Source: a virus
IMG/VR virus record: IMGVR_UViG_3300048838_000072
Span: 1-20,274 of that record
Length of the DNA: 20,274 bases
Strand: one strand, 5' to 3'
Part shown: in pieces, positions 2,904-15,750 of the stretch
Numbering within the stretch: the stretch's first letter is position 1
How the letters are laid out: each line of letters opens with the position of its first letter
Position numbers and translations under genes: made by a program
Notes under the pieces: generated by a model
What the model was told of the DNA's origin: nothing
Seen by the model: the letters and a program-made list of their open reading frames with translations, nothing else
Database searches by the model: none

Positions 2904-3511
2904 CGCACACCTGCCAGATCGAGTTGGCGGAAGAACTCGGCGCGCACGAAGTCGGCGACTTCATCGAGCCGGTCCTGACCGGCCACAGCGAGGGCCTGAT
3001 CGACTTCCACCGAATAGAGGATGTACGCGCCGCTGTCACCGCGCCGCAGCGGGTAACCGGCGCCCTTTTTGTTGACCAGGCGCTCGCCCGGCTTCAGGCG
3101 GACCGCGATACCAACCACGCCGTTCTTGAACCGCACGAAGAAGCCGCGGTTCAGGGTAACCGTCTTGCCCGGGTCGACCTTCACGCGCGGCTTCAGCCCG
3201 CGCCGGGCCGCGCCAGACGGGGCGTTCGTGGCGAACTTGGCCAGCAGGGTCGGGCTGTCTGCGCCACGGACCCGCGCCTCCAGCGACTCGCTCGACGCCG
3301 GGGCGACCGTGATCTTGCCGGTGTTCCGCGGCGAGTAAAGCTCGCACGGACGGAAGGCAACATCTTTGCGGATCTGCTCGGACGCCTTCGACGCCAGGCG
3401 GCGAGCGCCGGCGTTGATCGCCCGGCGGGCTGCCTCCACGGTCGCCTCGGGCGCCTTGGCGAAATACGCCTCGAAGTCCTCCAGGCCGCGGACCTCGACC
3501 TCAAGGGTCAC
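2900..3511 (-). CDS. Minor tail protein Z-like
   Basis: This 203-residue protein is similar in size to lambda gpZ (192). It starts with GTG in a GTGA overlap with the preceding gene. The first half is a helix ('FEAYFAKAPEATVEAARRAINAGARRLASKA') typical of the prophage minor tail protein Z family. A basic segment follows, with 'RRGLKPRVKVDPGKTVTLNRGFFVRFKNG' split over strands, and it ends in 'LDEVADFVRAEFFRQLDL'. In lambda, gpZ acts late in tail completion at the head-proximal end and positions the DNA end for ejection. The neighbours are a connector-like gene and the gpU-position gene, which agrees. Confidence is good for the family and lower for the exact role in this phage. Confidence 0.77.
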   Translation of the reverse strand: MTLEVEVRGLEDFEAYFAKAPEATVEAARRAINAGARRLASKASEQIRKDVAFRPCELYSPRNTGKITVAPASSESLEARVRGADSPTLLAKFATNAPSGAARRGLKPRVKVDPGKTVTLNRGFFVRFKNGVVGIAVRLKPGERLVNKKGAGYPLRRGDSGAYILYSVEVDQALAVAGQDRLDEVADFVRAEFFRQLDLAGVR

Positions 3512-3906
3512 ACGGCCTCCGGGATGCGCTCATAGCCTAGCGTGGCGGCCAGGTCGTCAGCGCGGTCGATCAGGTACTTCGGCGGGTCGCACTCGCGCGT
3601 CAGCACCCACATCTTCGTCTTCGCGTAGGCGATGGTCGAGTTGTCTATTCCGGCTGCGTTCAGGTTCGGGTACGGACCAGCGCTGTCGAACTCGGTGGCC
3701 GCAACGTAGATGCGGGCCTTGCACGGGATGGCGATGCCCCAGCGGGTTGGCTCTGTGTCCTGCGAGCCGATGGGCCGCAGCGGGACCGGGTTGTCCCACA
3801 GGCCGGCATTGCCCGGGTCGGCAGCCAGCGGGGCAGCGAAAGCAGCCGCCACCGGCAGGTCGGACGTGACAGCAACCAGGCTGTATTTCCACTCGGTTTC
3901 GCTCAT
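3508..3906 (-). CDS. Unknown structural/connector-like protein, 132 residues
   Basis: The most likely start is the ATG at 3906, which overlaps the stop of the lectin-like gene as ATGA. This gives MSETEWKYSLVAVTSD and 132 residues. The stop overlaps the GTG of the gpZ-like gene. The frame stays open further upstream, but that part is antisense-like in composition and overlaps the neighbour. The protein is mixed, with a 'WGIAIPCKARIYVAATEFD' strand pair and 'MWVLTRECDPPKYLIDRADDLAATLGYERI' at the end. Its location at the head-tail boundary suggests a completion or stopper role, but I see no motif that proves it. Recorded as hypothetical with a structural context. Confidence 0.6.
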   Translation of the reverse strand: MSETEWKYSLVAVTSDLPVAAAFAAPLAADPGNAGLWDNPVPLRPIGSQDTEPTRWGIAIPCKARIYVAATEFDSAGPYPNLNAAGIDNSTIAYAKTKMWVLTRECDPPKYLIDRADDLAATLGYERIPEAV

Positions 3907-4997
3907 GACTGCGTGTTCACCCAGTTGTAGTAGCGCGTGATCTCGTCGTCGGTGAGCTGGTCGTTCACGATCAGGAAGCCGCCGAAGTCGGCAAGCTGCT
4001 GAATGACCAGGTAGGCACTGTTGACCGCGACGGCCGAGTTGCCGGACGTGAGCGTCGTGGTGGAAGCCACGGCGTTTTCGACGATCTGCGCGCTGCTGCC
4101 CTGACCGCGGGCACCGGACATACCCCACACCTCGGACGCGCGGGTATACGCGCTGTTCTGGCCGGTGGATTGCTGCCGTCGCCACCCGCACCTGGTGGTG
4201 AAATTCGGGCTCGTCCCGGTGAACGAGTAGTAGAGGTCAACGAAGGTGGCCGGGGAGCTTCCGAGAGTGTTGGTAACCCGCAGCGCCAGCACCTCGTCGG
4301 TCGTCCCGGTGGCGTTGCGGCGTCCGTAGAGCAGGACCGTCAGTTCGCTGGTGTTGGACACCAGGCTCATCGACGAGAGGTCGAACAAGAAGCTGGTGGC
4401 CGACGCGCCGTAGAGGTAGCCGGCAGTGTGGTACCGCGCGGCCTCGGCATCCGTGCCAACGCTCGCGCTCACAACGGCGCGAACGCCGTTGATCCGCTTC
4501 ACGATGTCGCCGGTAGCGCTCACGTCTCCCGTGCCGTCGGCATTGCGGCGCAGCGTTGACGCGACGCGCGGGTCGACGTAGTCGCCCAGCCGGCCGCCGG
4601 TGAAGATCGCCTCGGGCGTCCACGCCGCTGCGTTGTTGACGATCGCCGTCGGGCCGAACGAGGCAACGTCACCACCAGCGCCAGCAAGATCGCCGGTGCC
4701 CGCGTCGTAGGTGATCGTGCCCACACTGTCGCCGGCGTAGACCTTCGGGATGGTCAGGTCGACATTGCCGCCACTGATCGACCCGGACGAGATAGTGCCG
4801 ACCGAGCGCGTCAGGCCCAGCGTTGCCGTGCCCGCCGTGATCGGCTGCGAGAACAACAGCCGCAGCGTCACGCCATCAGACAGGATGGTCGCCGAGACGA
4901 GCGTCGGCGGAACCGGAGCGGCCCCGCCGTTCGACTGAACGTAGAGCCCCGTCCTGGTGAACGCCGATACAAGACCAGTGCGCTTGACGAGCTGCAC
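3903..4997 (-). CDS. Virion decoration protein: SWM/Ig-like domain plus ConA-like lectin fold
   Basis: This 364-residue protein starts with GTG at 4997, with GGAGGT five bases upstream. Residues ~30-120 form a beta domain ('PPTLVSATILSDGVTLRLLF...ITAG...VYAGDSVGTITYD') resembling SWM/Ig-like repeats in the next-but-one gene. Residues ~125-364 look like a concanavalin-type beta sandwich: 'ELTVLLYGRRNATG', 'FVDLYYSF', and the closing 'FGGFLIVNDQLTDDEITRYYNWVN', a typical end of phage LamG/ConA domains. Such domains bind glycans. Encoded in the head-completion region rather than with tail fibres, it is likelier to decorate the capsid or neck. No enzyme motif is visible. The domain calls are from pattern recognition and need a profile search. 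Confidence 0.6.
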   Translation of the reverse strand: MQLVKRTGLVSAFTRTGLYVQSNGGAAPVPPTLVSATILSDGVTLRLLFSQPITAGTATLGLTRSVGTISSGSISGGNVDLTIPKVYAGDSVGTITYDAGTGDLAGAGGDVASFGPTAIVNNAAAWTPEAIFTGGRLGDYVDPRVASTLRRNADGTGDVSATGDIVKRINGVRAVVSASVGTDAEAARYHTAGYLYGASATSFLFDLSSMSLVSNTSELTVLLYGRRNATGTTDEVLALRVTNTLGSSPATFVDLYYSFTGTSPNFTTRCGWRRQQSTGQNSAYTRASEVWGMSGARGQGSSAQIVENAVASTTTLTSGNSAVAVNSAYLVIQQLADFGGFLIVNDQLTDDEITRYYNWVNTQS

Positions 4998-11313: not shown

Positions 11314-14300
11314 GCGAGGTCCGCCGCTATCTTGCTCAAGTCAACGCGAGGTTTAGGTGCCGAAGCGAAACGCCGCTCGGCAGTCTCACCCGAAACTAGG
11401 GCATTCGTATCCCACTCCGCAACCCACGCCGGCGGCTTCTGCCAGTTGATGTTCTCCATCCCGAGGTACGACACCAGCGCCAGGTTGTAGACGAGCAGGT
11501 CCCACGCCTCGTTTCGCAGCTTCTTCAGGTTCACCCACCGGCCTTTCACGTCCTTCTGCTCGACCGTCAGTTCCACGAAGAACGAATCGGGCAGCCAGTC
11601 GGGCAGCACGACCATCCCGCCGCGCGGCTCCGTGCGGTCGAGCATGTGGTCGAGCTGGTCCTTGACCTTGTCGGTGTTTATCAGCAGCACCGGAATCTCA
11701 CCGCGCGCGGCGGCCTTGCGATCCTTCCGTTTCGCGTCCGGGTAGGAGACGGTGACCCGCGGCGCGCTCGGCAGGGACGCGCCCTTGAGCAGCATGAAGC
11801 GACCGTTGAGGCCCTGCTTCCGCAGCGTCCGGTAATAGTCGTAGGCCTTGGCGGTCACACCCTCACGGCCACCGGAGTCGCAGCCGACCATCTTGATCTG
11901 CATTCGCCGGCCGGAACCGTCGGACAGCGGATAGTCCTTCATCAAGACCTGCTCGGTCAGCAACTCCCAATCCTCCAGGTATGTCCCGGGCTTGACCCAA
12001 TACCTCTCGCCGTCGGGATCGACCCGCTTCGACTTCTGGATGGCGAAACGATCGACCACGACCACGTCGAGGCCGGGCCGGATGCCGTGAACCTGCACCT
12101 CGAAGCGGTTGGCCTGCACGTCCACGGTCGCAAGCAGGCACCGGACATCCGACGGCACCTCCCGCTCGGGGAGCGGCTGGGATTTCGCTTTAAGGTCCTC
12201 CGGCAGCCGGCTGGAGCCCAGCCCGCGGGGGATGTAGGGCTCACCCTGGTCGGTGTTGACCGTGGACTTCAGCGCCTCCTGGCTGCCGGTAGCCGCGAAC
12301 TCGGCCTCGGCCTGAAGGTACTTCGTGACGAGCGACTGCCAGCTCGTGAACGCTGCCGCGGGGCCCTTCAGCCAGAACGACGCGACGTTTGAGCGACGGC
12401 CCTCCCCGTGAACGACGCCGTTCTTGTCGACGGACTGCCCCTCTTTGAGCCAGCGCCCGCCGCGGTTGAGTTCAGCCTGCTGCTCTGGCTTCAGCGCGAC
12501 ACCGCAGCGCGGGCACGCCATGTGTACGCTCGCCGCGGCGCGGGCGATGTCTTTGTCCTGATCCCAGGTCAACAGTTTGAACGCCGGCTCGAACCAATCC
12601 CGGCAGTCCGGGCATTGCCAGTACCAGCGGCGGCGGTCGCCACGGTTGTAGAGCGCCAGCGCGCCAGGGCAGGGCGGCGCCTCGTGCTTCGTCGCCGGCA
12701 GCCACTTCGGGTTCGTCGTCTCGAAGCCAGGCGACGACTCGGCGAGCGTCATGGCAAACGACCCGAACGTCGTCGTCCGCTTCTGCGCCAGGTCGAACGG
12801 GGAACCCTCGCCGTCAATGTCCTGTGGCATACGGTCGTAATCGGTCAGCGCGACCTTTCCAACCGGACGGCCCGATAGTTCGTTGATCGTCGGCCAGGAC
12901 AGCGTGAGGATCATCCCGCTGCGGTAGAACTTGTCGTAGGTGTTGTCCGAGTCGCCTGCCTTGAGCAACTGCTCGCCGACCGTCTGCGAGTGCCGGTGGA
13001 GACGGTCGATACGCCGGCGCGAGAAGTCGCGCGCCACCGACTGCGAGGTCTGGTACATGATGAAGTCGGCCGGAGAGCACACGACCGTGTGCAGCAGCCA
13101 GTTGATAAGCAGGGCGTCTGTGTTATGCGTCGGGATCATCGACTCGCCGCACAAAAACAAGCGCGACGGATGGTCAACCTGTATGCACCGAACCGGCTCG
13201 CTCCTCACAGGCTCGATCTTGGTAATCCAGCGGCGGCCCGTGTAACCAGGGCGGCCTTCGCTGCGCTCTTTAAGACGAGTCAGTTTCCTGTTAAGGCGAA
13301 ACACCGGCTCGTCCGAATACGCAACAAACGAAATCCGGTAACTGGTTTTTCCTGGGCGGCGCTCTCCTTTGTAAACACAACTCGTCCTGCGAACGCTTCG
13401 CCCGACCTTAAACCCGAGTGAGCAAAGCAGTTCGTGTACGCCGCGCGCCAGGTCATACGACGTGGTGTCGAAAGAGCAGGAGCCGTTCTTGGCTACGGTT
13501 CCATCGGTGTCCATCAAGCCCTGAAGCAACGCGAGGCGTTGCTCAACAGACGCACGAAGGTACGCCTCCGGTATATGCTTCCGCCCGCCGTAATTTGTCA
13601 GCAGGCCCAGGGCGCGCAGCGACCCGAGAAGCCCGTAAGAACCCTCTCCGGGTTTCGGTGGACGTGGACACGGGTCAACGCGGGCCACTCCAAGCAACTT
13701 TCCGTCCAGCCCTGACTCAACCGGGTATCCGTCTGCTTGGATGTTCTTAATCAACTCTGGCAGGTCGTCAGCGTGACCGTAAATACGCGCGGTCCTGCTG
13801 TGGCCGTCCCCGAGCCAACACCCTAAAGTGTACGGGGCAATCGGCAGTTGACGCTCCGGCAAAACAAGAGGCTTTGCCGTCGCTATGGCGAAGCGCGACC
13901 GCTGGTTTTTTCCATAGCGGTACGTCTGCGCCAGGGTGGAGGTAGTGAGAATTTGCGGCCGTCCTGGCTTATGGGCGTCGTCTACCTGCCATTTGTGGTC
14001 GGCGTCTGCTATCACCTCCGAACCGTCGTCAAACGCCACGCGATAGCAAAGGTGGTCGTTCATCACATCAGTGGCGAACACAACCTTACATGGCGAGCCG
14101 TCGGCCGAGAGAATCTGATCCCCGACGCGCAACTCACCCATCGCCGTCCAACCAGTCGGGGTCGGTATGCGGGTAGTCAACGCCAACGCCTTACCCGTCT
14201 GCGCTGGGCCGACAAAGATGCACGCGTTGAAGTCCCGCGAGTCGAGCGTGTCCATCACCTCCGTCATGTACGGGGTGGTGTCGTTCTTCCACGGGCCGAT

Positions 14301-14435
14301 GTACGACCCCGGGTTGTGGACGTAGCGGTACTTTTCAGCCGCCTCGCTGACGGTCAGCCGCTCCGGCGGCCTTAACCCGTCGGCGAGACTTACGATCAGA
14401 TTCCGCAGCGTGGACGGTTTCGGGGTCTGGTTCAT
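11310..14435 (-). CDS. Terminase large subunit (gpA family), interrupted by an intein
   Basis: The frame encodes 1041 residues. Removing residues 83-438 leaves a 685-residue GpA-type terminase, near lambda gpA (641). The N-extein ends 'FVGPAQTGK' and the C-extein begins 'TDALLINWLL', so splicing restores a Walker A motif GPAQTGKT. Further features are 'GKVALTDYDRMP' (527-536, probable Walker B region), a zinc-ribbon-like pair CPDC/CPRC at Cys608, 611, 641 and 644, and a C-terminal nuclease with 'LLATVDVQANRFEVQVHG' and 'VGCDSGGREGVTAKAYDYY'. The enzyme cuts concatemers and drives packaging by ATP hydrolysis. Without splicing the P-loop is broken, so activity should depend on the intein. The GTG/ATG overlaps at both ends fit an operon with the small subunit and gpW. 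Confidence 0.94.
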   Translation of the reverse strand: MNQTPKPSTLRNLIVSLADGLRPPERLTVSEAAEKYRYVHNPGSYIGPWKNDTTPYMTEVMDTLDSRDFNACIFVGPAQTGKALALTTRIPTPTGWTAMGELRVGDQILSADGSPCKVVFATDVMNDHLCYRVAFDDGSEVIADADHKWQVDDAHKPGRPQILTTSTLAQTYRYGKNQRSRFAIATAKPLVLPERQLPIAPYTLGCWLGDGHSRTARIYGHADDLPELIKNIQADGYPVESGLDGKLLGVARVDPCPRPPKPGEGSYGLLGSLRALGLLTNYGGRKHIPEAYLRASVEQRLALLQGLMDTDGTVAKNGSCSFDTTSYDLARGVHELLCSLGFKVGRSVRRTSCVYKGERRPGKTSYRISFVAYSDEPVFRLNRKLTRLKERSEGRPGYTGRRWITKIEPVRSEPVRCIQVDHPSRLFLCGESMIPTHNTDALLINWLLHTVVCSPADFIMYQTSQSVARDFSRRRIDRLHRHSQTVGEQLLKAGDSDNTYDKFYRSGMILTLSWPTINELSGRPVGKVALTDYDRMPQDIDGEGSPFDLAQKRTTTFGSFAMTLAESSPGFETTNPKWLPATKHEAPPCPGALALYNRGDRRRWYWQCPDCRDWFEPAFKLLTWDQDKDIARAAASVHMACPRCGVALKPEQQAELNRGGRWLKEGQSVDKNGVVHGEGRRSNVASFWLKGPAAAFTSWQSLVTKYLQAEAEFAATGSQEALKSTVNTDQGEPYIPRGLGSSRLPEDLKAKSQPLPEREVPSDVRCLLATVDVQANRFEVQVHGIRPGLDVVVVDRFAIQKSKRVDPDGERYWVKPGTYLEDWELLTEQVLMKDYPLSDGSGRRMQIKMVGCDSGGREGVTAKAYDYYRTLRKQGLNGRFMLLKGASLPSAPRVTVSYPDAKRKDRKAAARGEIPVLLINTDKVKDQLDHMLDRTEPRGGMVVLPDWLPDSFFVELTVEQKDVKGRWVNLKKLRNEAWDLLVYNLALVSYLGMENINWQKPPAWVAEWDTNALVSGETAERRFASAPKPRVDLSKIAADLA
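13122..14189 (-). other. Class 3 intein with LAGLIDADG homing endonuclease inside terminase P-loop
   Basis: A 356-residue insertion within the terminase frame, from Ala83 to Asn438. It opens 'ALALTTRIPTPTGWTAMGEL' with 'VGDQIL' following, and closes 'IPTHN' before Thr+1. The first residue is Ala, not Cys or Ser, which excludes the ordinary class 1 mechanism. The class 3 Trp-Cys-Thr set is present: Trp149 in 'DHKW' (block B), Cys417 in 'VRCIQVDHPSRLFL' (block F) and Thr436 in 'PTHN' (block G). Two LAGLIDADG-type motifs are readable: 'LGCWLGDGH' (~204-212) and 'LLQGLMDTDGT' (~303-313), with both acidic residues kept. Splicing and homing activity are inferred from intact motifs. Base composition looks less GC-rich than in the flanking terminase, consistent with separate origin. 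Confidence 0.93.
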
Positions 14436-15540: not shown

Positions 15541-15750
15541 GTGGCCTACATCGAGAAGCGCGGGGAGAAGTGGCGCGTCCTGATCCGCAAGCGAGGCCGT
15601 GCGCCGATTAGCCGGACCTTTCGGCTCAAGGCGCAAGCCGAAAGATGGGCACGGGAGATCGAGGTCGCCATCGAGTCCGAGGACGCCGGACGCGCTACAC
15701 GAGGGGCCTGCTGGAAAAAGAAAACCCCTCGACGCCGGGTAGGAGGGTAG
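15541..15750 (+). pseudogene. Orphan N-terminal (arm-binding) domain of a tyrosine integrase
   Basis: The only credible plus-strand gene. A 69-codon frame starts with GTG at 15541, because an in-frame TGA at 15514 excludes any earlier start. Residues 2-50 ('AYIEKRGEKWRVLIRKRGRA', then 'SRTFRLKAQAERWAREIE') match the opening of many phage integrases: 'I.kRG.kWr..v.rkG....s.tF..KaeAe.Wa..iE', the three-strand AP2-like fold that binds arm-type DNA. The frame then degenerates into Arg/Lys-rich sequence and stops. The core-binding and catalytic domains are missing, and I found no remnant of them downstream. The ribosome site (AGGG) is weak. It is either a decayed integrase or a retained stand-alone DNA-binding protein. 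Confidence 0.6.

Follow-up and report, generated by a model that had tools for sequence, protein, structure and literature searches.

A class 3 intein, intact and equipped with a LAGLIDADG homing endonuclease, almost certainly interrupts the large terminase gene of this virus, between the Lys and the Thr of the Walker A motif of a GpA-type terminase. That this particular copy splices and cuts DNA is what we infer. The window (the whole stretch of DNA analysed) is a virus record of 20,274 bases, and the features within it are listed in Table 1.

The terminase gene and its insert

The reading frame of the gene is open along all 1041 residues of the precursor. The exteins on either side of the insert matched GpA_ATPase (PF05876, E 4e-61) and GpA_nuclease (PF20454, E 1e-66); with both GpA domains present, this is the make-up of a lambda gpA-type large terminase. 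The first-pass annotation had described a 356-residue insert at 13122-14189, between the Lys and the Thr of the P-loop, and this proved correct to the codon. The insert lies between Lys82 and Thr439 of the precursor (GPAQTGK/T, with a slash for the insertion point), and taking it out leaves 685 residues of extein.

Table 1. Features of the terL gene and its intein in the window
Feature	Position	Strand	Evidence
terL precursor, GpA-type large terminase with intein, 1041 aa	11310..14435	-	open frame, Pfam domains
N-extein (residues 1-82), with the Walker A stretch GPAQTGK at its C-terminal end (14190-14210)	14190..14435	-	translation, empty-site relatives
C-extein, remainder of the ATPase domain and nuclease domain, 603 aa	11310..13121	-	Pfam
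First residue of the C-extein (+1 Thr), which doubles as the Walker A Thr (Thr439)	13119..13121	-	translation, empty-site relatives
Class 3 intein with LAGLIDADG endonuclease, 356 aa, precursor residues 83-438 (A83..N438)	13122..14189	-	Pfam, phmmer, alignment, structure model
Ala1, replacing the Cys1/Ser1 nucleophile	14187..14189	-	alignment; Ala in 64/81 sequences
Cys48, equivalent of the redox partner Cys48 in Msm DnaBi1	14046..14048	-	conserved in 76/81
His65, block B:10, catalytic His	13995..13997	-	alignment, literature numbering
Trp67 (precursor Trp149), block B:12, W of the WCT triplet	13989..13991	-	alignment, literature
LAGLIDADG motif 1, LGCWLGDGHS, with Asp128	13797..13826	-	alignment
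LAGLIDADG motif 2, LLQGLMDTDGTV, with Asp229	13494..13529	-	alignment
Cys335 (precursor Cys417), block F:4, initiating nucleophile	13185..13187	-	phmmer, alignment, literature
Thr354-His355-Asn356, block G:5-G:7: T of WCT (precursor Thr436), penultimate His, cyclising Asn	13122..13130	-	phmmer, alignment

The neighbours of terL encode a small terminase, a portal, a head maturation protease, a major head protein, a helicase, a DNA polymerase and a probable lysin, which is an ordinary gene neighbourhood for a phage. The genome relatives of this TerL fall in Proteobacteria, which hints at the host range without settling the host. Scans for tRNA genes and Rfam families across the window returned no matches. 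On visual inspection, a 69-aa ORF at 15541-15750 on the plus strand, opposite to the late genes, looks like the N-terminal arm-binding part of tyrosine integrases; it displayed just a weak match to a PHROG of unknown function.

L082, another contig of this virus, is 99.96% identical to the window over 10.8 kb (10,809 bases, four differences) and has the insert as well, in frame, which makes an assembly error unlikely. Two of the four differences are missense changes within the intein, at window positions 13828 (Thr121Ile) and 14144 (Ala16Thr).

Class 3 inteins are defined by Trp at B:12, Cys at F:4 and Thr at G:5 (PMC5050341), and three class 3 mini-inteins whose splicing has been studied share the numbering His65/Trp67 (PMC5222942). 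The window intein displayed this Trp-Cys-Thr (WCT) triplet, has no N-terminal nucleophile, ends in His-Asn followed by a nucleophilic +1 residue, and adopts a Hint fold in its predicted model. The Ala start, and such a triplet in precursor residues Trp149, Cys417 and Thr436, had been read from the letters alone, and the triplet turned out to be invariant. When the window intein was aligned with 80 relatives from viral contigs, Trp67, Cys335, Thr354, His65, His355 and Asn356 were present in all 81 sequences, each of which ends in HN, with Thr (41) or Ser (40) as the +1 residue. In a phmmer comparison with the solved class 3 DnaB inteins 6rix (E 3e-30) and 6bs8 (E 2e-27), residues 1-70 and 326-356 were aligned, residues 1 and 356 met the termini of both structures, and Ala1 paired with their Ala1. 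Both LAGLIDADG motifs previously noted are present with their acidic residues, Asp128 in LGCWLGDG and Asp229 in LLQGLMDTDG, and a LAGLIDADG_3 domain (PF14528, E 4e-8) matched inside the insert.

An AlphaFold (AF2) model of the intein, for which sequences from the window and the related loci served as input, reached a mean pLDDT of 94.7. The model superposed on 6bs8 at 1.2 A over 125 residues and on 6rix at 1.6 A over 130 residues, the splicing domain being 46-48% identical to the class 3 DnaB inteins across the structural alignment. Nearly its full length matched the bifunctional intein/endonuclease PI-SceI (Z 28 over 329 residues). Collectively, sequence, structure model and relatives bear out the class first proposed, and support the identification of the insert as a class 3 intein at the Lys/Thr point of the P-loop with its endonuclease motifs intact.

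Probable splicing and cutting, and a possible control point

We postulate that splicing would start with the attack of Cys335 on the Lys82-Ala83 bond, that the N-extein would then be transferred to Thr+1, and that cyclisation of Asn356 and joining of the exteins would restore GPAQTGKT in a 685-residue terminase. Since the insert separates the Walker A Lys and Thr, the precursor has no normal P-loop and the motor should need splicing. The residues and the model make it very likely that the intein can splice by the class 3 route. Of the mycobacteriophage terminase inteins tested by experiment, five out of five spliced; some terminase inteins of these phages cut DNA, and their endonucleases can thus be active (PMC5050341). 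The insert might instead be a splicing-dead remnant or a Hint domain that is no intein, as the score of the Pfam Hint model on it, below the cut-off of that model, would allow. This is very hard to reconcile with a full set of catalytic residues, a frame open in two contigs and exteins that are otherwise complete, and an insert left unspliced would disrupt the Walker A motif of an essential motor.

During co-infection, the endonuclease of the class 3 intein would cleave a terL that has no intein within its P-loop codons, after which repair would insert a copy of the element. Such cutting by the window copy is likely. Alternatively, splicing may have been kept while the endonuclease is already inactive, the copy being vertically inherited and decaying towards a mini-intein. 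Homing-domain loss of this kind is found nearby: L115 displayed a mini-intein of 162 aa without endonuclease (1477-1959), and the closely related TerL of L116 has a full-length form of 394 aa (881-2059). The block C Asp is also substituted in 7 of the 81 sequences, and half of the differences between the window and L082 are the two missense changes in the intein. However, in the window intein both catalytic Asp are intact, the motif positions agree with the consensus, and the endonuclease domain folds confidently in the model. In addition, compared with the intein of L090, amino-acid-changing differences in the endonuclease part are far rarer than silent ones (pN 0.34, pS 0.74, with silent sites saturated). 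Taken together, we regard an inactive endonuclease as unlikely, if by no means far-fetched. The ratio dN/dS per domain was discarded as a measure of selection on the endonuclease, as synonymous sites are saturated.

The broken Walker A motif had also suggested a control point for late gene action; this idea is a hypothesis at best, taken over from DnaBi1, an intein sensitive to oxidation (PMC6195587). In Msm DnaBi1, splicing is reversibly blocked by a disulfide between Cys48 and the block F Cys (PMC6195587). Both Cys48 and Cys335 are found in the window intein, whose splicing domain resembles those of class 3 DnaB inteins to the degree given above; by analogy, oxidation might join these two residues and keep the terminase inactive, so that conditional splicing would act as a packaging switch. 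However, DnaBi1 needs Cys48 for splicing itself, every substitution having abolished it (PMC6195587); thus, the conservation of this residue in the alignment requires no regulatory role. Furthermore, most close TerL relatives are intein-free and presumably package their DNA without an intein. We consider such a switch improbable, and slightly more doubtful still is a Cys335/Cys48 redox toggle by which terminase activation, and hence packaging, would be delayed under host oxidative stress.

Empty sites and intein mobility

Searching with the C-extein yielded 62 TerL loci, and these provided the comparison with intein-minus relatives that the annotation had called for. The P-loop is continuous in 53 of them and interrupted by an intein at this very codon boundary in seven; the other two loci are truncated. 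The ungapped joined sequence at the insertion codon of these 53 relatives indicates that the insert is no product of chance. L156 and L179, both with inteins, were added by a second search. On a tree of 65 TerL sequences, intein presence required 11 changes against 12.8 for shuffled labels, whereas on a tree of 88 inteins those of GpA-type terminases grouped together (4 changes against 17.3). Patchy on the one tree and clustered on the other, the element is faithful to its site and not to its host lineage, as homing predicts.

The TerLs closest to that of the window, L083 (69% identity) and L084 (64%), are both empty; among the TerL relatives collected, no intein-free relative of the window virus was found above 69%. 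Meanwhile, the closest intein is that of L090 (55%), whose TerL is just 57% identical. Recent mobility of the family at this Lys/Thr site is well supported by its patchy presence and by the close filled/empty pairs described below. For the homing history of the window's own copy, horizontal movement is not proven. Formal conflict between intein and extein trees was set aside as proof of it, being one-sided only: the extein data reject a grouping of L082 with L090 (p 7e-5), and the intein data fail to reject the extein-like grouping (p 0.137).

Third-position GC was likewise dropped as a sign of recent arrival. GC3 is 0.671 in the intein against 0.787-0.904 in windows of the neighbouring genes, but class 3 inteins lie below their own exteins in 83 of 86 control loci, at any host GC. 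The difference between intein and extein averages -0.114 (sd 0.073) in this control, and is -0.192 in the window.

Two close pairs of loci with and without the intein bear on the events at the site. L156 (filled, 1394-2963) and L157 (empty, 3143-3551) are 98.0% identical in DNA, and L090 (filled, 3408-4560) and L092 (empty) about 95%. Synonymous differences are highest at the insertion point in both. Between L156 and L157, the 27 bases before this point contain five differences, all of them synonymous, and the 60 bases after it contain none. Between L090 and L092, 21 of the 40 codons in the 60 bases flanking the site on each side differ, 15 by silent changes, compared with 18 of 200 farther off. 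The ratio of near-site to background differences was 2.27 and 3.99 in these two pairs, against 0.36 to 1.78 in empty/empty pairs, the highest of which involves L092, while distant filled/empty pairs displayed no near-site excess (0.68 to 1.18). The altered P-loop tract belongs to L092 and not to L090, since L090 matches its empty relative L107 there; no donor for this tract was found among the loci examined. Such a silent peak is expected both from co-conversion at homing and from empty alleles that evade cutting, and two pairs are too few to decide.

Inteins interrupt deviant Walker A motifs at the homologous point in the GpA-like terminases of L034 (MGA/T), L049 (LGF/T) and L050 (IGA/S), and perhaps likewise in L030 (VGL/T) and L069 (IGL/T), so invasion does not depend on the P-loop Lys.

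Relation to known inteins

Among the closest counterparts are the class 3 DnaB inteins of mycobacteria (Msm DnaBi1, Mch DnaB1, Mle DnaB), which share with the window intein the WCT triplet, the His65/Trp67 numbering, the missing Cys1/Ser1, the THN end, the P-loop insertion (DnaBi1) and a fold close to that of the model (1.2-1.6 A). Those are mini-inteins in a host helicase, whereas the window intein has a complete LAGLIDADG domain, lies in a phage terminase and is followed by Thr at +1. PI-SceI combines a splicing domain and a LAGLIDADG endonuclease in the same whole-length fold, but follows class 1 chemistry in a yeast V-ATPase and is only 18-19% identical.

Inteins at the Lys/Thr point of the P-loop in phage TerL have already been published for Terminase_1 proteins of mycobacteriophages (PMC5050341). 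The TerL1-a and TerL1-b inteins are likewise found in the P-loop of a phage large terminase, TerL1-a at the very same point, but their host protein is of the Terminase_1 type (PMC5050341). That survey of mycobacteriophages recorded inteins only in Terminase_1, Terminase_6-like and one terminase-like protein (PMC5050341). The host protein in the window is GpA-type, from phages whose nearest genome relatives fall in Proteobacteria.

Acidovorax phage ACF1 (MZ547449.1) is one isolated phage with a GpA-type relative. Its TerL also contains a WCT intein, which is 40% identical to that of the window and belongs to a different lineage; its first residue is Cys, and Asn replaces the Asp of LAGLIDADG motif 1 (WLGNG). 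The record annotates the protein just as "terminase large subunit", leaving the intein unmentioned. WCT inteins with this additional Cys at position 1 occur in the GpA-type terminases of ACF1 (L144:463-1512), L115 and L116; their chemistry may be that of class 1 or of class 3.

Other class 3 inteins of this collection lie elsewhere. One clade (L015, L035, L039, L041, L042, L051, L059, L070, L078 and L080) has its insertion sites away from any P-loop, where motifs such as RMYNYW and AYHFK precede the intein; its host is possibly a portal or another head protein. One viral contig (L058) contains a pair of class 3-type inteins, each ending in THN and each in an ORF of its own.

No report of inteins in GpA-type terminases was found in the open-access literature. 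What is new here is mainly the GpA-type host protein, the natural plus/minus pairs, and, in each of the two close pairs, synonymous divergence that peaks where the intein is inserted. Inteins invade the Lys/Thr point of the P-loop recurrently, and the present case firmly adds GpA-type packaging motors to the hosts of class 3 inteins. The filled and empty alleles of nearly identical phages offer natural material for asking whether homing goes on in environmental phage populations, and whether silent changes of the P-loop codons let empty alleles escape cutting.
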